Virus record (IMG/VR): IMGVR_UViG_3300045950_000056
Coordinates: 1-53,719 of that record
Direction: 5' to 3' (one strand)
Source: a virus
DNA: 53,719 nucleotides
This document shows positions 8,987-30,760 of the stretch, one piece after another. The stretch's first letter is position 1. Each line of letters starts with the position of its first letter. A model generated the notes under the pieces. That model was not told where the DNA came from. It made no database searches and saw nothing but the letters and a program-made list of their open reading frames with translations. A program made the translations under genes and the position numbers.

Positions 8987-10539
8987 TGGACGCATGCCGG
9001 GTATTAGTCCACATCCTCACTCACTGCTACAACGACTGCGCGGCAGGTCTGTCGCCTGGCGGCGCAAGCCCCCAAGCCCCCTTCCGCCAAGGCTCACGGC
9101 GTCTCTTGAGTGCCCGCACGGGCACTTACACGACGTTTCTCCAGCGGAAGTCCCACTCCGGACTTGACTCGGGGTTCGTGCCTCTCTGGTTGCCGGACAT
9201 GCTCTTCGATTTTCAGAAGGCGCTCACGGAGTGGGCTATCCTGAAAGGCCGAAGCGCCCTCTTCGCGGATTGCGGGATGGGTAAGACGTACATGCAACTC
9301 GTCTGGGCCGAGAATGTGGTCCGTCAGACGAACAAAGCCGTGCTGATCCTGACGCCGCTTGCGGTTTCTCAGCAGACCGTCGAGGAGGGCGAGAAATTCG
9401 GGATCGAGGTCCGCCGAACCACCGACGGGACAATCAAACCTGGTATCAATGTCACGAACTACGACCAGCTTCACAAATACGATCCAGCAGAAGTTGTCGC
9501 CGTCGTCTGCGACGAAAGCTCGATCCTGAAACATTTCGGCGGGGCGACACAAAAGCTGCTCACGCGGTTCGTCTCCAAACTTCCGTACCGGCTCCTCTGT
9601 ACGGCGACGGCGGCCCCGAATGACTTTCACGAACTCGGGACCAGTAGCGAGGCCCTAGGCGTCCTCGGCTATACGGACATGCTGAGCCGGTTTTTCGCTC
9701 TCGCCGACAGCGGCCACTGGCGGCAGGACGCTGTGAGGCTCGCGCAGCAGGCGAAAGCTGGCCACCACTACGCGAGGCTGGCCTATCGTGTGTCCCAACA
9801 GATCGGCCAGTGGCGGTTGAAGCCGCACGCGGAAATCCCGTTCTGGCGATGGGTCTGCTCCTGGGCGCGGGCTTGTCGGAGTCCTGCGGACCTTGGGTTT
9901 GCTCAGGACGGCTTCGCGTTGCCCGCATTGATGGAGCGCCACTATATCGTGACGCCCTCCCGTCCTCCAGACGGGATGCTCTTCACCATCCCTGCCTTTG
10001 GGTTAAGTGAGGAGCGGGACGAACGCCGCCGGACACTGGACGAGCGCGTGGACTTGGTGCGACGCCTTGTTGATCATCCCGAGCCAGCCGTCGTGTGGTG
10101 CCATCTGAACGTGGAAGGTGACCGTCTCGCCGAGGCGATTCGGGGCAGTGTCCAAGTGAAGGGATCAGACAGTAACGAGGCCAAGGAAGAAGCCTATCGC
10201 GCGTTCAGCCGTGGCCAAGTGCGTGTCATTATTACGAAGCCGAAAATCGGGGCGTGGGGCCTGAACTGGCAGCACTGCGCCCATGTCGTGACCTTTGCGT
10301 CCCACAGCTACGAGCAGTATTACCAGTCTGTGCGCCGATGCTGGCGGTTCGGCCAGCACCATCCGGTGACTGTCGATATCATCTCCACCGAAGGGGAAGT
10401 GCATGTGCGGGATAACATGGTCCGAAAGATGGCGGCGGCGGACCAGATGTTCACAAGCCTCGTTCGCTATATGCATGAGGCTGAGCCTGTGACCAGGGTC
10501 CACGCCGACCAGGACGTAGACGTGCCCTCATGGCTGTGA
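8986..10539 (+). CDS. SNF2-type DEAD/DEAH helicase
   Basis: 517 residues if read from ATG 8986. Domains in order: DFQKALTEWAILKGRSAL then Walker A ADCGMGKT at about residue 97; PLAVSQQTVEEGEKFGI; DExx-like VVCDESS; motif III LLCTATAAPND; C-terminal RecA domain with VVWCHLN, ITKPKIGAWGLNWQ and motif VI YEQYYQSVRRCWRFGQ. Such ATPases remodel or translocate on dsDNA and are often encoded beside methyltransferases in phages. The conserved part begins just after the palindrome at 9110, so the first ~45 codons may not be translated and the true start is uncertain (ATG 9199 is another option). Confidence 0.8.
   Translation: MDACRVLVHILTHCYNDCAAGLSPGGASPQAPFRQGSRRLLSARTGTYTTFLQRKSHSGLDSGFVPLWLPDMLFDFQKALTEWAILKGRSALFADCGMGKTYMQLVWAENVVRQTNKAVLILTPLAVSQQTVEEGEKFGIEVRRTTDGTIKPGINVTNYDQLHKYDPAEVVAVVCDESSILKHFGGATQKLLTRFVSKLPYRLLCTATAAPNDFHELGTSSEALGVLGYTDMLSRFFALADSGHWRQDAVRLAQQAKAGHHYARLAYRVSQQIGQWRLKPHAEIPFWRWVCSWARACRSPADLGFAQDGFALPALMERHYIVTPSRPPDGMLFTIPAFGLSEERDERRRTLDERVDLVRRLVDHPEPAVVWCHLNVEGDRLAEAIRGSVQVKGSDSNEAKEEAYRAFSRGQVRVIITKPKIGAWGLNWQHCAHVVTFASHSYEQYYQSVRRCWRFGQHHPVTVDIISTEGEVHVRDNMVRKMAAADQMFTSLVRYMHEAEPVTRVHADQDVDVPSWL
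9110..9125. repeat. GTGCCCGCACGGGCAC palindrome copy
   Basis: Arms GTGCCCG/CGGGCAC, centre CA. It sits directly after a TGA (9107-9109) and immediately before the conserved part of the helicase reading frame. Confidence 0.85.
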
Positions 10540-11495
10540 TCGAGCAGAGCGTGACTAACCGCTACGCGCTCTACTTAGGCGACTGCGTAGAGGTCATGGC
10601 AACGCTGCCAGACGCCTCTGTGGACATGTCGATCTATTCGCCTCCATTCGGGGGCCTCTACCAGTACAGCTCCGACGAGCGGGACATGTCGAACTGCGTC
10701 ACGCGCGAGGAGTTTTTTGAGCATTACGAATTTGCCGTGCGCGAGATCACGCGGTTGACCAAGCCGGGGCGCATGACGGCTGTTCATTGCGCGGACATTG
10801 CGAGTGGGAACACTGGACTCGATCACCTCTACGATTTCCCCGGCGACCTCATCCGCCTCCATGAGCGGATCGGATGGAAGTTCTGCGCCCGATATCATGT
10901 TTGGAAAGAGCCCCTGACGGTTCGCAACCGGACGATGACGAAGGCGCTGTCCCACAAAATGCTGACGCTCGACTCCACCCGGTGCAACATCGCCAATGCG
11001 GATCAACTGCTGCTCTTTCGGAACCGAGGCACGAATCACGTGCCAGTCTCCCATCCCAACGGTCTGCAACACTACGCTGGTGCGCGCCCGATTCCGTCCG
11101 ACGTGCTCGCTTACCGAGGCTGGCGCGGGTCGCAGATTGAGAATCGCTACTCTCACTGGATCTGGCGGCAGTACGCCTCGGCCTTCTGGGACGACGTACG
11201 GATCGACCGGGTGCTGCCGTATCGGCAGGCCAAGGATGAGGATGATGAGAAGCACGTCCACCCGCTGCAACTGGACGTCATCGAGCGCGGACTGATCCTC
11301 TGGTCGAACCCTGGCGAGACGGTCCTCACGCCGTTTATGGGCGTGGGATCGGAAGTATATGCCGCGCTCTCATTAGGGCGTAGGGCGATTGGGATTGAAC
11401 TGAAATCAAGCTATTATCAGCAAGCCAAAGCGAATATCAAATCGCTCGGTCGGCTCGCGGATCAAGACGAGTTGGCACTCGATGGGCAGCCGTGA
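10530..11495 (+). CDS. DNA N4-cytosine/N6-adenine methyltransferase
   Basis: 321 residues, start overlapping the helicase by 10 nt. Catalytic motif SPPF (37-40) comes before the AdoMet motif FMGVGSEVYAA (from about 269), the beta-class order. SPPF points to N4-cytosine or N6-adenine. No restriction nuclease is adjacent, so it is an orphan enzyme, possibly protecting phage DNA from host restriction, working with the SNF2 helicase or marking DNA for packaging. Assignment strong, specificity unknown. Confidence 0.85.
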   Translation: MAVIEQSVTNRYALYLGDCVEVMATLPDASVDMSIYSPPFGGLYQYSSDERDMSNCVTREEFFEHYEFAVREITRLTKPGRMTAVHCADIASGNTGLDHLYDFPGDLIRLHERIGWKFCARYHVWKEPLTVRNRTMTKALSHKMLTLDSTRCNIANADQLLLFRNRGTNHVPVSHPNGLQHYAGARPIPSDVLAYRGWRGSQIENRYSHWIWRQYASAFWDDVRIDRVLPYRQAKDEDDEKHVHPLQLDVIERGLILWSNPGETVLTPFMGVGSEVYAALSLGRRAIGIELKSSYYQQAKANIKSLGRLADQDELALDGQP

Positions 11496-11571
11496 CCGTC
11501 CTCATCTTGGGAGGCAACCTATTCGATCCGTAGTCGTGTTCCGATGGGCCAACGAGCGTCGAGTGAACGGG

Positions 11572-11676
11572 ATGCCCACGCCGACGATGCTGGCGAAGCA
11601 GGCCTACGAGCTTGTATGCTCGCATCCGCTTTATCCGCTATCCTGGCTCATGCGAAAGAAACGGGTAAACGCATGA
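11572..11676 (+). CDS. Short hypothetical ORF
   Basis: 34 residues from ATG 11572 (MPTPTMLAKQAYELVC then a basic end); the frame is open from 11482. Its TGA overlaps the next ATG (ATGA), the junction typical of this genome. The overlapping +2 frame is also open, so support is modest. Confidence 0.4.
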   Translation: MPTPTMLAKQAYELVCSHPLYPLSWLMRKKRVNA

Positions 11677-12296
11677 CGCGCATCGACCCGGACGGCCTTC
11701 GCCCCTACGAGACGCGCGACTTGCGGCTGCGCCAAGGCGCGAAGTTCCTGGCTGTCGAAGCCCTCGCGTGGGCGCGGGTGGCCCGAGAGGCCATCGAGTC
11801 GGAAGACTATCTCCGGTTCGGCTTTGAGAATGTCCGGGACTACTTCGACCAGCGGGTCGGGGTGGCCTACCGGACAGCGGCGAAGTATATCGCCGTCGTG
11901 AATGCTCTCGATGCTTTGCCACCGGCGGTTCAGCCGCGCGCGCAGACCGCCATTGCGGAGATCGGGATTCACCGGGCGGCGGTGCTGGCGCCGGTCCTGA
12001 CGGCGAAGACGTGGGAACGGTGGGTCGCGCAAGCCGCGATCTCTCGGGAGGCCGCGCTCCAGGAGGCCGTGTCGGCCAGCCTCGGACGGGAGCAACGAGG
12101 TGGGCTGCCTGACAACCCCGGCGAGCGGGCCTACCGCCATCTCCTCCACTACTTGCCAGACGAGGAGCGGGACCGGTTTGACCGCGTATTTCGGGCCGCG
12201 ATGAAGGTAGCCGAGACGGATAACCCGGTTCGCGTGTGGTTGTTGATGATCGGACTCCTCGAAGCGGACCTTGTGGCCCAGGGGGTGAAGGTATGA
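11673..12296 (+). CDS. Helical putative DNA-binding protein
   Basis: 207 residues from ATG 11673. N-terminus LRLRQGAKFLAVEALAWARV, then FENVRDYFDQRVGVAYRTAAKYIAV, whose helix pattern resembles a DNA-binding helix-turn-helix, and further helices (ISREAALQEAVSASLG). It resembles phage/plasmid accessory proteins with a helical N-domain, but no ParB motif is visible. It lies in the recombination/replication operon. Confidence 0.65.
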   Translation: MTRIDPDGLRPYETRDLRLRQGAKFLAVEALAWARVAREAIESEDYLRFGFENVRDYFDQRVGVAYRTAAKYIAVVNALDALPPAVQPRAQTAIAEIGIHRAAVLAPVLTAKTWERWVAQAAISREAALQEAVSASLGREQRGGLPDNPGERAYRHLLHYLPDEERDRFDRVFRAAMKVAETDNPVRVWLLMIGLLEADLVAQGVKV

Positions 12297-19432: not shown

Positions 19433-20587
19433 TTACTCCAACAACGCCAGTAATGTATCGTAAATAGCTGTCGCTATTGCACTATCCAGCGCATTACCCA
19501 CGAGGTCGGCGGCCCATGAGAATGGAGCAAGAAATAAGAATGAATCCGGGAAGCCCTGGATCCTGGCGGCTTCCCGCAGCGTCAGGGCGCGGTTCTCGGT
19601 TGGGTGCCAGAATCGCCCGCTGCCGGGGTTGGCGAAGTAGCATGTGATGGTTCGGGCGAGACCAAGGCGGTGGAGACGGCCGTAGCTCTGCGAGTAGTGA
19701 TCAAGCCCGCCCCGCCAGCGACCGCCCTCCGGCACGCGGCTCATGCGGCGCAGCTGGCCGCGCGTATGCGCCCACGGTCGATGTGACAGCCTCTCCGCCT
19801 CAGCCATCCCGATGGGCGGCAGGCCGGTCAAGATCTCCCCCACGTAAGGAATCGTCCGCCGGCCAAGGCCTTCATCGTCAAAGGGCAGCCCCTTGCGCAA
19901 GCGCTGGGTCGCGGGCGCCTCCCCGAGCATCGAGACCCGATCGCCGTCGAGGCGCTTCATGGCCTGGTCGCGATAGCAGAAATACCGGCGTTCGCCGCCA
20001 TGCGACGCTCGCGCGATTCGGGGCGCGACGCCAACATCACGATGGATGCCGATGTACACGAGGCGCTGGCGGCACTGGGTGCTGCCGCGGAGCGCCGCGT
20101 TGATGATCCCGGCCGTCCAGGCGTAACCCGCGCGCTCAAGCCGGCGCGTGAACGTCCGGAACTGCGGCGCGCCGGCCCCCAGGGGTACGTTCTCCATCGC
20201 GATGGCCAACGGCTTAAGCGCGACAGCGAGGTCAGCAAAGCGGAGCAGGTGCGAGTTCCGGGGATCCCCGGGATCGCGGGCGCCGCCGTCGCTGAACCCC
20301 TGACACGGCGGACACCCGAGAAGGATGTGGACGCGACCCCCGGCCAGGGCCTCGATTCGATCCGGGCTCAACCGCCGGACGTCCGCCCTGACGTAGGGCG
20401 CGGTTGGGAAATTGTAGAGGTACGTATCCCGGGCGAAGTCATCGTTGTCGACGAAAAGGGCCAATCTGCACCGCTTCCAGCACCTGAACGGCTCCGCCGA
20501 TCGCGCCGTCCCCGCGTAGAGCTCCGCGAGACGGAGCGGCGCAAAATGCCTCACGATTGGCGCTCTATTCATCTCTCCTCCGCTCAT
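19433..20587 (-). CDS. dcm: C5-cytosine DNA methyltransferase
   Basis: 384 residues. Motif I-like LRLAELYAGTARSAEPF, catalytic GCPPCQGFS with Cys95, MENVP (131-135), QCRQRLVYIGIH (motif VIII) and C-terminal LVGNALDSAIATA (motif X). All key motifs for 5-methylcytosine formation are present. It is divergent from the Vsr-like gene, whose ATG lies 13 nt away, so the two share a promoter region. The pair suggests methylation with matched T:G mismatch repair. The gene symbol is by class; target sequence unknown. Confidence 0.85.
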   Translation of the reverse strand: MSGGEMNRAPIVRHFAPLRLAELYAGTARSAEPFRCWKRCRLALFVDNDDFARDTYLYNFPTAPYVRADVRRLSPDRIEALAGGRVHILLGCPPCQGFSDGGARDPGDPRNSHLLRFADLAVALKPLAIAMENVPLGAGAPQFRTFTRRLERAGYAWTAGIINAALRGSTQCRQRLVYIGIHRDVGVAPRIARASHGGERRYFCYRDQAMKRLDGDRVSMLGEAPATQRLRKGLPFDDEGLGRRTIPYVGEILTGLPPIGMAEAERLSHRPWAHTRGQLRRMSRVPEGGRWRGGLDHYSQSYGRLHRLGLARTITCYFANPGSGRFWHPTENRALTLREAARIQGFPDSFLFLAPFSWAADLVGNALDSAIATAIYDTLLALLE

Positions 20588-20599
20588 CTATACTGCGAC

Positions 20600-21307
20600 A
20601 TGAGGCCGGTCGCGATGGACCCATTGAGCCCAAAGGAGCGCAGTCGTCGGATGATCCGCGTTCGCTCAACTGAAAACCGGTCAACCGAATGGAAGTTCCG
20701 CTCGGCGCTCATCCGGCAAGGACTCAGGAACTGGGTAATGCACCCGCGCTCAATTCCTGGCGTGCCAGACTTTCTCTTCCCGCCACGTAAGCTAGCGATC
20801 TTCATTGACGGATGTTTTTGGCACCGTTGTCCCAAGTGTCGTCGACGCCTGCCAGCGACCAACCGCGCATACTGGTCTCGAAAAGTGAAATCCAACGTGG
20901 CGCGCGCGCGGAGCGTCACGCGCCAGCTCCGTCACGAGCGCTTCGCCGTCGTTAGAATCTGGGAGCACGAGCTCCGCTCTCTAGGCTCGCTCCAAAAACT
21001 CTTCCGCGCCTGCGCTACAGCCCGAGTCGTTTCTACTGGACGCCATCCGCCGAGGAGTAACCCCAGGAGCTTCGCTGTCGGTGCTGGGATCGCCCGCCTG
21101 CCTGTCTCCCAGCGGGTTACCGTGACGCGGTGGACCCCGACGAGGCGGGCAAGCCCGGCCTGGCTGACGCGCAGGCGACCCCGGATCGCCCGGCAGTGGG
21201 TTGGGGTCATCTCCACATCCATCCGACGATTCCTGATATCCCCGCACTTGCAGCATTTCATGTGCGGCTTCCTCCGGATAGTGTCTGGCGGCACGTCGAG
21301 ACAGTAG
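20600..21307 (+). CDS. vsr: Vsr-like very-short-patch repair endonuclease
   Basis: 235 residues from ATG 20600 (ATG 20615 also possible). The first 125 residues fit Vsr: SRRMIRVRSTENRSTEWKFR, IPGVPDFLFPPRKLAIFIDG with Asp57, CFWHRC and VVRIWEHEL with the catalytic-site Trp/Glu. Vsr nicks 5' of T in T:G mismatches left by 5mC deamination. Normal Vsr is about 150 residues. Beyond ~140 the frame is the antisense of the HTH gene and probably an unstopped extension. Confidence 0.75.
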   Translation: MRPVAMDPLSPKERSRRMIRVRSTENRSTEWKFRSALIRQGLRNWVMHPRSIPGVPDFLFPPRKLAIFIDGCFWHRCPKCRRRLPATNRAYWSRKVKSNVARARSVTRQLRHERFAVVRIWEHELRSLGSLQKLFRACATARVVSTGRHPPRSNPRSFAVGAGIARLPVSQRVTVTRWTPTRRASPAWLTRRRPRIARQWVGVISTSIRRFLISPHLQHFMCGFLRIVSGGTSRQ

Positions 21308-21324
21308 CAATGGTCACACGTCAT
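20932..21324 (-). CDS. Zinc-ribbon/XRE helix-turn-helix regulator
   Basis: 130 residues from ATG 21324 (GGAGG ribosome-binding site; ORF opens at 21357). Zinc ribbon CDHCYC...HMKCCKCG, then an XRE HTH (residues 44-90: CRAIRGRLRVSQAGLARLVG, VTVTRWETGRRAIP). The MqsA/HigA-like layout suggests an antitoxin-type or lysogeny-type repressor. The last ~35 residues overlap the Vsr catalytic region in antisense and are not protein-like. Likely controls the divergent 21560-21721 region. Confidence 0.7.
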   Translation of the reverse strand: MTCDHCYCLDVPPDTIRRKPHMKCCKCGDIRNRRMDVEMTPTHCRAIRGRLRVSQAGLARLVGVHRVTVTRWETGRRAIPAPTAKLLGLLLGGWRPVETTRAVAQARKSFWSEPRERSSCSQILTTAKRS

Positions 21325-21339
21325 ACCCAACCTCCACCA

Positions 21340-21357
21340 GTGCCCCTGCGCGGGCAC
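21340..21357. repeat. 18-bp palindrome copy (GTGCCCCTGCGCGGGCAC)
   Basis: Family arms with a 2-nt longer centre. On the minus strand it fits exactly between a TAG (21358-21360) and the ribosome-binding site of the HTH gene. Confidence 0.8.
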
Positions 21358-22185: not shown

Positions 22186-22290
22186 ATGACACAAGAAGAG
22201 GGGGCGCTACCCTCCAGAGAGCGCGCCAGCGAACCTGCGTCCCCCACTGGAAAGACCGTGGTGGGATTCGAACCCACGGCGGCGTGGTAA
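22186..22290 (+). CDS. 34-residue ORF overlapping the tRNA antisense
   Basis: AAGGAG precedes ATG 22186; reads MTQEEGALPSRERASEPASP, then TGKTVVGFEPTAAW. The last third is antisense to the tRNA 3' half, which explains GFEPT. Plausible ribosome-binding site but doubtful coding. Confidence 0.25.
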   Translation: MTQEEGALPSRERASEPASPTGKTVVGFEPTAAW

Positions 22291-22347
22291 CGCACGCCGC
22301 ACCTAGCGGCGAGCTAGGCGCCTTAGGCCACTCTCAGCCACCCGGTC
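22254..22347 (-). tRNA. Class II tRNA (Ser-like), anticodon loop CTCGCCG
   Basis: 94 nt. T arm GTGGG-TTCGAAT-CCCAC is perfect. Anticodon stem CCTAG/CTAGG is perfect with loop CTCGCCG, giving anticodon CGC. The variable arm is long with an 8-bp stem (GCGGCGTG/CACGCCGC), and the D arm resembles tRNA-Ser (GGCTGAGAGTGGCCTAAGGC). The acceptor stem GACCGGG/CACGGTC has one mismatch, and no CCA is encoded. A long variable arm with an Ala-type anticodon and C37 is abnormal, so it may be a degraded or recoded tRNA-Ser. Confidence 0.7.
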
Positions 22348-22412
22348 AAGTCAGGGGCGCCCGAAACCTTGCCAAGGGAAGGGCGCCCTTGGTGCTTCTC
22401 TTGCTAACATAA

Positions 22413-22812
22413 TGACGGATTATCAGACGCTGGGAAATCAAGGGCTTGTGGGTACGCCAGTTACCCTACAATCCAGTGTAGGCTCATCCCGAGTGCGTGG
22501 TGGCGAAAATGAGACTGTCATGACATGTGTCAGATACGAGACACTCAATGGGGCGCCTATTCTCCATGGGTGGCGAGCGGTGTTTCACGTGGAACACGAA
22601 GTGGGTGTTATGGCCATGGTGTAGTGTTCTCATGGGCGCTGACCCATATACAATCACCCCCTTTGGCGTCAGTTTTGGCGGCAGTTTTTCTCCAGAAAGG
22701 CGATTCACAAAATGACCTTGGGAATTGCACAGCCGGCCCCCTCGCTCGAAAATTTCCGATATACCCAAAATCCAGTTGGGGGTAGGGGGGGCCTGCGAAG
22801 TCGGGAGGGAAG
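22413..22812. other. Gene-poor region with parS and small palindromes
   Basis: About 400 bp without a convincing gene. It holds the parS site, a palindrome TGTCATGACA near 22517, CCTACA/TGTAGG arms near 22470 and more A/T than its surroundings. Candidate centromere, origin or control region. No terminator was identified. Confidence 0.5.
22581..22596. promoter_or_regulatory. parS: parS (ParB-binding centromere site)
   Basis: TGTTTCACGTGGAACA; the complementary strand reads TGTTCCACGTGAAACA, the canonical chromosomal parS of many bacteria. Each half is an accepted half-site. No ParA or ParB gene was recognised in the window, so the host ParB would be the binder. Confidence 0.8.
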
Positions 22813-25651: not shown

Positions 25652-26738
25652 TCGAGAGATTCGGGCGGCGGCCCGTGAAACCGGAATTCCCGAGGACCTG
25701 ATCCGGTCGGTGATCAAGGTCGAATCGAATTTCAACCCTCGCGCGGTCGGTGCCCAAGGTGAACAGGGCCTCATGCAGCTGGGACCTGATCTCGCCCGGT
25801 CGCTCCCCGATCCCTTCGAGCCTCGCGCGAACATTCGGCGAGGGGCCCAGTTCCTTAAAGAACTGCTCGATCGGTTTGGGGATCAAGAATTGGCGCTGGC
25901 GGCCTACAACGCGGGACCGACGCGCGTGAGTCGACTCGGGCGACGGATATTCTCAGAAATCCCGAGTGTGCGGAGGTATGTGGATCGGGTGCTCGGGCGG
26001 ATGACGGCCATCGCCGAATCGCCTGAGCCGCGCTTGGCTCCGCCGACTCCGGGACGCCCATCGGAACGCCCGACCCGTCCGACGTTGTCCCGAGAACCCA
26101 TCGTCGACCGTCCGCTGATCTCAGCGGGCGAGGCGCCGAGACCCTCACGCCCCCCGTTGCCAGAACCTCCACGGGTCTCCGTGCGGCCTCCCTTGGAGGA
26201 GACGGCCAGTCAGCTCGTGCCTCGACCGATCCCCCCACGGGTGCATCGGGAGGGTCCGCCGAGAGCGGGCCCCCCGCCACCAGCGAGAATTCCTGTCGCG
26301 TCCGTGCTGGCCCATCTTCGCCCCCGGGAAGCGCAGGCGGAGATTCGGCGCCCCGTGCCCGGCCACACCGAATCATTCCCGGTTCCCATCCCGCCCACGT
26401 TCGAGCCCCTCGAACCGGTCGAGATGCCGGCCGGTCCATTCCGACCTCGCGCAGATGTGCCCGAAGGGCCACCCCCGGGAGTGCCCCAACCCGCCGATTT
26501 GGAACGCCTCGGACTCCGGCTGAGTCCGCTAGCGACGATCTCGGACCGTCCAGCTCCGATCGCCGTGGTCATTCCGGTTCCCTCACCCCCGCCACCGACT
26601 CCTCCGCCTCTGGCGGACCTCACCGAGGCGGGACGCGAATGGCACCGGCTCTACGCGATGATGCACCGCCAGATGGTCGATCAGGCGTTCGCCCGCCTCC
26701 GGGAGCGAGAAGCCGAGTCCCTCATCCAGGCGCCCTGA
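25635..26738 (+). CDS. Virion-type lytic transglycosylase (SLT domain)
   Basis: 367 residues from ATG 25635 (GGAGG ribosome-binding site). Residues 1-115 are an SLT lysozyme-like domain: catalytic Glu30 in IKVESNFNPRAVGA, GLMQLGP (45-51) and AAYNAGPTRV (89-98). It cleaves peptidoglycan glycan strands with anhydro-muramyl products. No signal peptide, so it is likely delivered with the virion at infection. The remaining 250 residues are Pro-rich and unusual. Its stop overlaps the terminase start. Confidence 0.8.
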   Translation: MAQTFDREIRAAARETGIPEDLIRSVIKVESNFNPRAVGAQGEQGLMQLGPDLARSLPDPFEPRANIRRGAQFLKELLDRFGDQELALAAYNAGPTRVSRLGRRIFSEIPSVRRYVDRVLGRMTAIAESPEPRLAPPTPGRPSERPTRPTLSREPIVDRPLISAGEAPRPSRPPLPEPPRVSVRPPLEETASQLVPRPIPPRVHREGPPRAGPPPPARIPVASVLAHLRPREAQAEIRRPVPGHTESFPVPIPPTFEPLEPVEMPAGPFRPRADVPEGPPPGVPQPADLERLGLRLSPLATISDRPAPIAVVIPVPSPPPPTPPPLADLTEAGREWHRLYAMMHRQMVDQAFARLREREAESLIQAP

Positions 26739-28465
26739 TGCCCTGGCCGACGGCATCCCTGAAACACCCGGACCTCGAACGCTATCACTGGATTCGGGAA
26801 TTGCACCGGTGTGAGCGGCGGTTCGACTATCTCTGCGCGTCGTACCTCCACATCAAATCCAAGGACGTGATCGGATTTCCGACGCTCCGGTTCAATCCCG
26901 TGCAGCGAGTGCTCTGGGAGCGGATGCGGGCCCAACTCCGGCGGGAGGGATGGGTGCGGCAAGTATGGGGCAAAGCCCGCGCGGTCGGCGCCTCCACGCT
27001 GGCCGAGGCGTGGACCTTTTATAACACCGCCTATCAGGATAATCGCAGCGCGATCATGCTCGTCCACGACGAGCCCACGTCATTTGAGCGGTTCGACGTG
27101 ATTCATACGTTCCTGGATGCGCTGCCCGATCCGTTGAAACCGCTGTGTTCGTACCGCTCCAAAACGCGCATGATGTTCAAGAACCGGAATTCCAAGATCA
27201 AGACGGGCCATGCGCGGAATCCGAACGTCGGAGCCTCTGAAACCATTCATATCAGTCACGAGACCGAATGGGCGCGATATCCGAACCCGGAGGAGGTGCA
27301 AGCCTCTCTCGCGCCGACCTATTCCGAGGCGAAGGGCGCGCAGTTTTCTTCGGTGATCCGGGAATCGACCTCCGTGTACGGCGGGACGTGGTTCAAGGAG
27401 TTCGCGGAGGCCAGCCGAAAGGGCGAGACCGAGTACGAATTTCATTTCGTCCCGTGGTTTCTCCATCAGAGCTATACCGCGCCTGTGCCCGAGGACTTCG
27501 AGCTGACGGTGGACGAGCAGGAACTGAAACGTCGCTATCAGCTCACCGATGGACAGCTGGCGTGGCGGCGCAAAAAGCAAACCGAATATGTCACCAATCC
27601 GCAGTTGATCGACCAGGAGTATCCCTACAGTTGGGAGGATAGCTGGCGACTCCCGAAAGGGACGCGGCGCCTCCTGGATGAGGCGCTCTTGACGGCCCTG
27701 AAACAGGGGGTCCGCCCGGCGACGCGCATGATGCCGACCTCGACGGGCTTGGAGGCGATGCTGGGAGGACCGGTGGACGTCTGGGCCGAACCGGAGGAGG
27801 GCGTCTTCTATGATTTCGGGCTCGATCCGGCCGAGGGGGCCTCCGACGCCTCGGACTGGACGGTCGGATGCGTGATCCGGCGGGATACGCTCGAACAGGT
27901 CGCGCAGTTTCGCCTCCATCTCAACCCCGCGGCCCCGGAATTCTTCGATCTGGTGTATTGGCTTGGCATGGCCTATCATGGGGCCCAGTTCTGCCCGGAT
28001 ATCACGGCGGGATGGGGCCATGCGGTCATGCGGGAGATGATGCACCGGAACTATCCGACGATCTGGCGCTGGCGGCACTTCGATGACGCGAAAGGCCGCG
28101 CGAGCCAGAAGCTCGGCTTTCTCTTTACGCCGCAGTCCAAGCGGACGCTGGTGACCACGACGGTCGCCGCCCTGACGGCGGGCCATGTTACGATTCACTC
28201 AGAAATTCTGTGGAATGAACTGGTCGAATTCCTGTGTCTCGGCCTCGATCAGTGGGGGGCGGCCCCGGGACACCATGATGACTGCGTGGTCGCCTGGATG
28301 CTGGCGATCCTGGCCGCGCGCGGCGAGCAATCCACCCTGATCCCGGCGGATCCCCCCGTGGTCGCCACAACCATCGGGAAACCCTGGGCGGTCCATGATG
28401 TGGACGCGGATTTGCCCGCAGCGGCCCTGGCGTGGTTAGACACTTCACCGTGGAGGATTCGATGA
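26738..28465 (+). CDS. terL: Terminase large subunit
   Basis: 575 residues from ATG 26738. ATPase: Walker A-like GKARAVGAST (78-87) and Walker B-like IHISHETE (170-177). RNase H-like nuclease: FGLDPAEG with Asp363, CPDIT with Asp421 and GHHDDCVVAW with Asp514/515. It powers DNA packaging into the prohead and cuts concatemers. The Walker A is of the deviant terminase type. No clear small subunit is adjacent; candidates are the helical genes at 24250-24836. Confidence 0.85.
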   Translation: MPWPTASLKHPDLERYHWIRELHRCERRFDYLCASYLHIKSKDVIGFPTLRFNPVQRVLWERMRAQLRREGWVRQVWGKARAVGASTLAEAWTFYNTAYQDNRSAIMLVHDEPTSFERFDVIHTFLDALPDPLKPLCSYRSKTRMMFKNRNSKIKTGHARNPNVGASETIHISHETEWARYPNPEEVQASLAPTYSEAKGAQFSSVIRESTSVYGGTWFKEFAEASRKGETEYEFHFVPWFLHQSYTAPVPEDFELTVDEQELKRRYQLTDGQLAWRRKKQTEYVTNPQLIDQEYPYSWEDSWRLPKGTRRLLDEALLTALKQGVRPATRMMPTSTGLEAMLGGPVDVWAEPEEGVFYDFGLDPAEGASDASDWTVGCVIRRDTLEQVAQFRLHLNPAAPEFFDLVYWLGMAYHGAQFCPDITAGWGHAVMREMMHRNYPTIWRWRHFDDAKGRASQKLGFLFTPQSKRTLVTTTVAALTAGHVTIHSEILWNELVEFLCLGLDQWGAAPGHHDDCVVAWMLAILAARGEQSTLIPADPPVVATTIGKPWAVHDVDADLPAAALAWLDTSPWRIR

Positions 28466-29038: not shown

Positions 29039-30760
29039 ATGGCGACCCTGACCCTTCCTGACGTGATCCGATTGGAGGGTCGTCGAAAAACGCCAGAAGA
29101 GGATCAGGCGTTGAAGGTCCTCGATACGCTCTTTGACGAGGCGAAGCGGGCGAAAGATCACTGGGTCAAGCAGGAGGACATTGACCGCGATCTGAAGCTC
29201 TATCGCGGCCAGGTGGGACCTCCGAACCGCGAGCCGCACTTCAAAGCTAACTTTGTTGAAGCGTTCATCGACCGGATGACCGCCCAGTTGACCGATAACC
29301 GCCCGATTATCCGAGTCGAATCCCGAAAAGACGGGCTGAAAGGCGTCGCGGATGTCGCCAACAAGGTCGTGCGGGCCATCTGGGACGACGAAGATGTCCA
29401 GCGGCAGACCTTCAAAATGTGCCATAACGCCGCCGTCACCCGCTCGTCGGGATTTTACACGGGCTATGATCCGCTTCTGGATCAAGTGGTCCTGGAACTC
29501 GTGCCGATCTCCCAGGTGTGGATTGACCCGGCCGTGTCCGAGGCCGCGCGGGTCAGCAAACACGCCGAATACGTCATCATCGAGCGCATCCGGTCCTTGG
29601 AAGAAGTGAAGGCACGATTCGGCCGACGGGCGGACGGGCTCACGGCCGATTCGGACATTGATGTCGTCCCACAGGAGCGCCGGTCGGTGGCCTCTCCGCT
29701 GACCGATATTGTCTTTGGTCGGCGTCTTCGGGGCGGAATGGGCGTGCCACGGATCAAATTGAGGGAACATCTGCTCCGGGATTGGGCCGTCTCGACCGAG
29801 AACGGCTCGGTCCGCCTCAGCAATCCCGGAGGCCGCATCCTGATCCGGTCGAAGGATCGGCTGCTCTACGCGGGACCGAACCCGTACTGGGACAGCGAAT
29901 TCTGTCTGGACTGGTTCGACTGGCGGGTCGATCCGCAGCATCCCTGGGGGGCCTCCGAGCCCGACCGGCTCCGGCACCTCCAAATTTCCTTTAACGAGAT
30001 CATGGACGGACTCGTTGAAAACCAACTCCTGAGTAATTTCCTGGCCTTGGTCGCTGATTTCGACGCCTTCAGCCCGGAGACCTGGACCAAGCTCCAACAG
30101 ATCAGCTCGAGCCTGATTCTCAGGAAGCAAAACCGGAATGCCTCGGCAGTCCTGACGCCGCCGCCGACGTTCGGAGCCGATAAAATCGCCCTCGCGCGAC
30201 AACTCTTCACGTTCGCCCAACTCCTGACGGGCGTGACCGATGTCACGCTCGGCGAAAGTCCGGGATCGCTCCAGTCTGGCGTCGCGCTCGAAGGGCTCCA
30301 GGAGGGGGCGAATCTCATGACGCGCTCGCGGGCCTCTCGGTTGGAGGATTTTTTTGCCCGCATCGGGCAGAAACTCCTCGCCCGGATTTTTCAGTTTATG
30401 ACCTCGGATCGTGTCGTGTCGTTGGTGGGTCCGACCGGGGCCGCTTTGGAATACGCGATCAAACGCCAGGAATTTTTCACCCGCGACGACGGGAACGCCA
30501 TCCCGGAACACGAGCGGCGCCAGGTCTTTCGGGATCTTCGCTTCGTTGTGTCACCGGGCTCCTCGGCCATTGGGAGCCGAGTCCGTCGAGTGGAAGCGAC
30601 CCTGAAGCTCAAGGAAGCGGGCGTCGCCTCAAGCCTGGATGTGCTCCAAGCTGGCGATTTTCCAGAACCGGAGGGCATGATCGAGCGGGCCAAGAAGGAA
30701 TTGATGGAAATGGCCCCCGTCCTCAACCTGTTAGGATCAAGACGTGGCCCTGCCAGTTGA
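29039..30760 (+). CDS. Portal protein
   Basis: 573 residues right after the terminase block. N-terminal EDIDRDLKLYRGQ, FVEAFIDRMTAQLTDNRPII, VANKVVRAIWDDEDV and a C-terminal GSSAIGSRVRRVEATLKLKE pattern fit phage portal proteins of the podovirus/P22-like type. Forms the 12-subunit DNA channel at one vertex. Order (terL, zinc protein, portal, scaffold, capsid) supports this. Confidence 0.8.
   Translation: MATLTLPDVIRLEGRRKTPEEDQALKVLDTLFDEAKRAKDHWVKQEDIDRDLKLYRGQVGPPNREPHFKANFVEAFIDRMTAQLTDNRPIIRVESRKDGLKGVADVANKVVRAIWDDEDVQRQTFKMCHNAAVTRSSGFYTGYDPLLDQVVLELVPISQVWIDPAVSEAARVSKHAEYVIIERIRSLEEVKARFGRRADGLTADSDIDVVPQERRSVASPLTDIVFGRRLRGGMGVPRIKLREHLLRDWAVSTENGSVRLSNPGGRILIRSKDRLLYAGPNPYWDSEFCLDWFDWRVDPQHPWGASEPDRLRHLQISFNEIMDGLVENQLLSNFLALVADFDAFSPETWTKLQQISSSLILRKQNRNASAVLTPPPTFGADKIALARQLFTFAQLLTGVTDVTLGESPGSLQSGVALEGLQEGANLMTRSRASRLEDFFARIGQKLLARIFQFMTSDRVVSLVGPTGAALEYAIKRQEFFTRDDGNAIPEHERRQVFRDLRFVVSPGSSAIGSRVRRVEATLKLKEAGVASSLDVLQAGDFPEPEGMIERAKKELMEMAPVLNLLGSRRGPAS

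Follow-up and report, generated by a model that had tools for sequence, protein, structure and literature searches.

The locus raises the question of why a phage without recognizable partition proteins should carry a parS site of the bacterial chromosomal type. The window, i.e., the complete IMG/VR record IMGVR_UViG_3300045950_000056 (53,719 bases, classed as linear), contains an exact copy of TGTTTCACGTGGAACA (Table 1), as claimed in an earlier note on this DNA. By sequence, the site has the 16-bp form of chromosomal-type parS (TGTTYCACGTGRAACA); it differs at one position from the palindromic TGTTTCACGTGAAACA, which is given as the consensus of bacterial chromosomes by Livny et al. (2007; as cited in PMC10197239), and retains both half-sites and the CACGTG core. 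Unlike its bacterial counterparts, it is located on viral DNA, occurs in single copy, and is not accompanied by parAB. The next-best place in the window has four mismatches to TGTTTCACGTGAAACA. Under a first-order Markov model, about 2 × 10^-5 matches to the four TGTTYCACGTGRAACA forms together would be expected in 53.7 kb, and every CACGTG-centered site in 200 simulated windows had at least three mismatches. Both results bear out the low probability of a chance match asserted in the earlier note. The parS is real and not a chance match, and it is probably functional.

Table 1. Features of the window discussed in the text
Feature	Position	Strand	Remarks
parS (exact TGTTTCACGTGGAACA)	22581–22596	+	
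AT-richer, apparently gene-free gap holding parS	22396–22812		G+C content 53% vs. 62% overall
tRNA gene	22253–22347	-	Neighbor of parS only; ARAGORN call tRNA-Ala(CGC), long variable arm
Terminase large subunit	26639–28465	+	PHROGs; query for relatives
Portal protein	29039–30760	+	PHROGs; query for relatives
C5-cytosine methylase	19433–20587	-	
Vsr mismatch endonuclease	20618–21307	+	
ORF with Cys pairs	20932–21357	-	Candidate regulator
250-aa protein	11544–12296		

The gap that holds the site is bounded by a tRNA gene and by the first small ORFs that precede the structural genes; here the left half of the genome gives way to the structural half. The ORFs that cover it are short (62, 70, 86, and 156 aa), and the 86-aa frame has no match in PHROGs. 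Third-position G+C, computed for two of the four, is 45% and 55%, compared with the 74–78% typical of the genes of this phage. The stretch of about 400 bp beside the tRNA, previously described as gene-free, is apparently just that, because the covering ORFs lack a gene-like codon-position composition. Promoter-like and terminator-like patterns occur near parS; the promoter-like match is a single, weak consensus hit. The neighboring tRNA has the shape of a Ser/Leu tRNA yet an anticodon loop CUCGCCG, which is read as CGC (Ala); position 73 is a U, and CCA is not encoded. It may be degenerate or an unusual phage tRNA. No exact match to its 3' end occurs in the genome collection searched, and an Rfam search yielded no matches.

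The family matches are those of a tailed phage, which the relatives of its terminase and portal mark as podovirus-like. They comprise a RecT-like annealing protein, a PD-(D/E)XK nuclease, a helicase, DNA methylases, Vsr, RusA, HNH, an L,D-transpeptidase-like protein, a lytic transglycosylase, terminase, portal, and the major head protein (PHROGs). HMM searches of the six-frame translation of the whole record for ParB_N (PF02195), HTH_ParB (PF17762), and the ParA family AAA_31 (PF13614) were all negative, and neither ParA nor ParB appeared when the larger ORFs were scanned against Pfam and PHROGs. By these searches, the record lacks both genes expected of a self-encoded ParABS system, the ParB CTPase/HTH gene and the ParA ATPase gene, in agreement with the earlier note. 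A 250-aa protein considered as a remote ParB was rejected, having no usable family match and a predicted structure of too poor quality (pLDDT 51). Family searches also recognized no integrase or plasmid replication initiator, many of the small ORFs being without a match or outside the scan; among the scanned ORFs, many of them without a family match and the small ones left out, the only matches bearing on plasmid replication or repressor-based lysogeny are phage replisome-organizer-like. The genes of the C5-cytosine methylase and the Vsr endonuclease form a divergent pair; the end of the Vsr frame is overlapped by an ORF in which Cys pairs and an XRE-type helix-turn-helix (VSQAGLARLVGVHRVTVTRWETGRR) can be discerned by eye.

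Searches with the portal and terminase recovered a few distant lineages (39–58% identity for the portal and 44–53% for the terminase large subunit) that share the structural gene order, one of them distributed over several contigs. The portal and capsid of the nearest lineage (lineage A) are 57% and 72% identical, respectively, to those of the window phage. A search with the terminase alone found one fragment; a capsid scan found no relatives, the genome collection searched contained no relative of the portal, and phage records contained no DNA-level relative of the 20–26 kb stretch. A canonical parS with at most one mismatch is absent from the relatives found by portal and terminase, all of which are distant and several of which are fragments, which places its gain or loss after the divergence of the window phage from them. 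Absence from relatives, which the earlier note would take as refuting its proposal, is thus observed, but counts only weakly because the relatives found are so distant; conservation within the phage group would in any case support, and not strictly define, an orphan parS of the phi29 type. The sequence TGCTTCACGAGGAACA in lineage A was not counted as a parS because it has two mismatches and a broken CACGTG core. The terminase large subunit of lineage A (L143, positions 9272–11998) contains an in-frame insertion that starts with CLSGDTRI, ends with VHN before S, and looks like an intein; the window terminase is free of this insertion.

The site recurs in other viruses. In IMG/VR, at least 120 stretches contain the exact TGTTTCACGTGGAACA. 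The T..T-flanked subset, which represents 17 of 134 sampled sites, by itself accounts for at least 120 stretches, and extrapolation from this subset yields about 900 or more contigs with the exact 16-mer. By comparison, the reversed motif was found in 1 contig, and a shuffled motif matched in composition, core, and degree of symmetry in 17 contigs from 5 lineages, so that chance should explain no more than a few per cent of the sites. Clustering of the first 120 loci listed gives 85 lineages, as opposed to the 5 of the shuffled control. Among 50 parS-bearing contigs at least 15 kb long, ParB_N was detected in 4, HTH_ParB above the cut-off in none, and ParA in 1; 42 of the 50 have exactly one parS, as does the window phage. 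At low-GC loci, i.e., those in which ORFs are informative, parS is non-coding in 56% of cases, compared with 18% of random positions. Counts, lineages, ParB-less contigs, and non-coding bias together establish that a lone parS without ParB recurs among viral contigs of many unrelated phages. One 116-kb contig (L046; IMGVR_UViG_3300037518_000322) has 24 parS sites clustered by a ParA gene and represents either a phage-plasmid or a host origin region. Some parS records, possibly including this one, may contain host DNA, which is unlikely to explain the bulk of them.

Named isolates show the same recurrence. BLAST searches with the motif and A..T flanks returned 164 records, led by phages of Pseudomonas, Arthrobacter, Bacillus, Stenotrophomonas, and Listeria, and the palindromic form returned 315, led by phages of Listeria, Microbacterium, Arthrobacter, and Gordonia; of the two controls, one gave no records and the other one lineage only, in a Lactococcus tape-measure gene. 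The ten commonest names in either tally do not include Escherichia, Salmonella, or Klebsiella, which is consistent with the fact that these genera are not known to have a chromosomal ParABS system. In Bacillus phage phi29, the identical TGTTTCACGTGGAACA occurs four times, and the annotation of this phage includes neither ParA nor ParB. In 7 of 34 named-phage lineages, parS lies within 3% of a genome end, compared with 2 expected (P about 0.004), in a post hoc test on representatives picked by hand; the trend is a lead toward a role in the protection of entering DNA. The sites of phiPsa374 (L269, position 389) and Vibrio phage phi 3 are located in terminal repeats, and unrelated phages with a site in a terminal repeat or within 3% of an end include Arthrobacter Lucy, Gordonia Orchid, and Ruegeria V10. 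The literature searched, which excluded preprints and most subscription journals, contained no survey of parS across phages.

The 16-mer is probably a loading site for the chromosomal ParB of the host that would tie the phage genome to host segregation. Use of host ParB is supported by the analogy with phi29 and by the very large enrichment of ParB-less parS among viral contigs, although such enrichment across a collection is not proof of function in this particular genome. ParB-CTP clamps load at parS and then slide (PMC12704722). We infer that a ParB of the appropriate specificity is present in the host; its clamps would load at the parS of the entering phage DNA and spread onto the adjoining sequence. 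A phage genome covered in this manner could become cargo for the ParA of the host and, in many hosts, also recruit SMC. The likeliest benefit to the phage would be the positioning of its genome, or its co-segregation with host DNA, under conditions that delay lysis, e.g., during slow growth, dormancy, or sporulation, as reported for phi29 in Bacillus. Of the proposals in the earlier note, use of host ParB by means of a lone parS is retained and titration of host ParB may occur, whereas partition as a plasmid-like prophage finds no support: no partition gene, integrase, or plasmid replication initiator was recognized in the family searches, and the closest precedent, phi29, is a virulent phage.

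Other roles for the interaction with ParB are conceivable. The site may serve as a decoy that draws host ParB, together with SMC, away from the chromosome or obstructs segregation and division of the host, without aiding the phage genome to segregate. Such interference is known from SGI1, whose orphan parS mimics bind the ParB of an IncC plasmid, destabilizing the plasmid and stabilizing SGI1 (PMC10954446), and the copies of parS would multiply with phage replication. However, the single site in most phage contigs would be weak for titration before replication, the more so as chromosomes commonly have several parS; a decoy is unlikely. Slightly less likely still is a local regulatory or architectural role, in which ParB bound next to the tRNA and upstream of the structural genes would affect transcription or protect incoming DNA ends, without any involvement in segregation. 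The position of the gap between the two halves of the genome, the promoter-like and terminator-like patterns close by, and the excess of named-phage lineages with a site near a genome end would fit such a role, but the sole promoter-like match is a weak one, and the end trend is post hoc and comes from hand-picked representatives of named phages.

It is also conceivable that the site does nothing for the phage. The tRNA and the AT-richer gap might be a relic of DNA captured from a host or plasmid, with a parS that is now functionless. The lower G+C content of the gap, the unusual tRNA, and the absence of the site from relatives are in line with this origin; however, a perfect 16-mer would decay unless the capture was recent, selection is suggested by the recurrence of a lone parS across many phages, and the genome collection yields no exact match to the 3' end of the tRNA. 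A relic is quite improbable. Least probable is a chance match: some are inevitable among millions of contigs, but the rarity of the control motifs of equal composition speaks strongly against it. A loading site for host ParB remains the preferred explanation.

The wide recurrence of ParB-less parS is a more interesting result than the single site. Tentatively, a lone host-type parS may represent a general, convergently acquired plug into the ParB/SMC machinery of the host, used by many unrelated and often virulent phages and situated, in some groups, on the first DNA to enter the cell; the window phage would be one instance. So far, phi29 has been treated as a special case of sporulation. Should phages of hosts with a chromosomal ParB commonly carry ParB-less parS, host chromosome segregation would be a widespread but little-noticed phage target, and parS could help to predict the hosts of phages.

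Among known systems, SGI1 is likewise a mobile element that carries centromere mimics without Par proteins, but the ParB that it targets belongs to a plasmid and has another site, and SGI1 is an integrative element and not a phage. Extrachromosomal prophages of mycobacteria are described as carrying partition systems (PMC7157519). Common to them and the window phage is phage DNA that uses, or in the window phage would use, ParB/parS-type partition. The mycobacterial prophages presumably encode their own Par proteins, whereas none were recognized here. The closest counterpart, and a precedent for an element of this kind, is phi29. According to Meijer et al. (2005; as cited in PMC9437464), Spo0A halts its lytic cycle, and the trapping of the phage chromosome in spores involves Spo0J (ParB). 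Three of its four sites are inside genes and one is between genes, whereas the window phage, nearly three times the size of phi29, has a single site in a gap; the reported link to sporulation is that of phi29. By HMM searches and motif scan, the window phage nevertheless has the orphan parS of the phi29 type, a host-type site in a phage without ParA or ParB: both carry the identical 16-mer, and neither has recognized or annotated Par proteins of its own. Phage phi29 is reported to rely on the ParB of its host, and by analogy, the same use may apply here.
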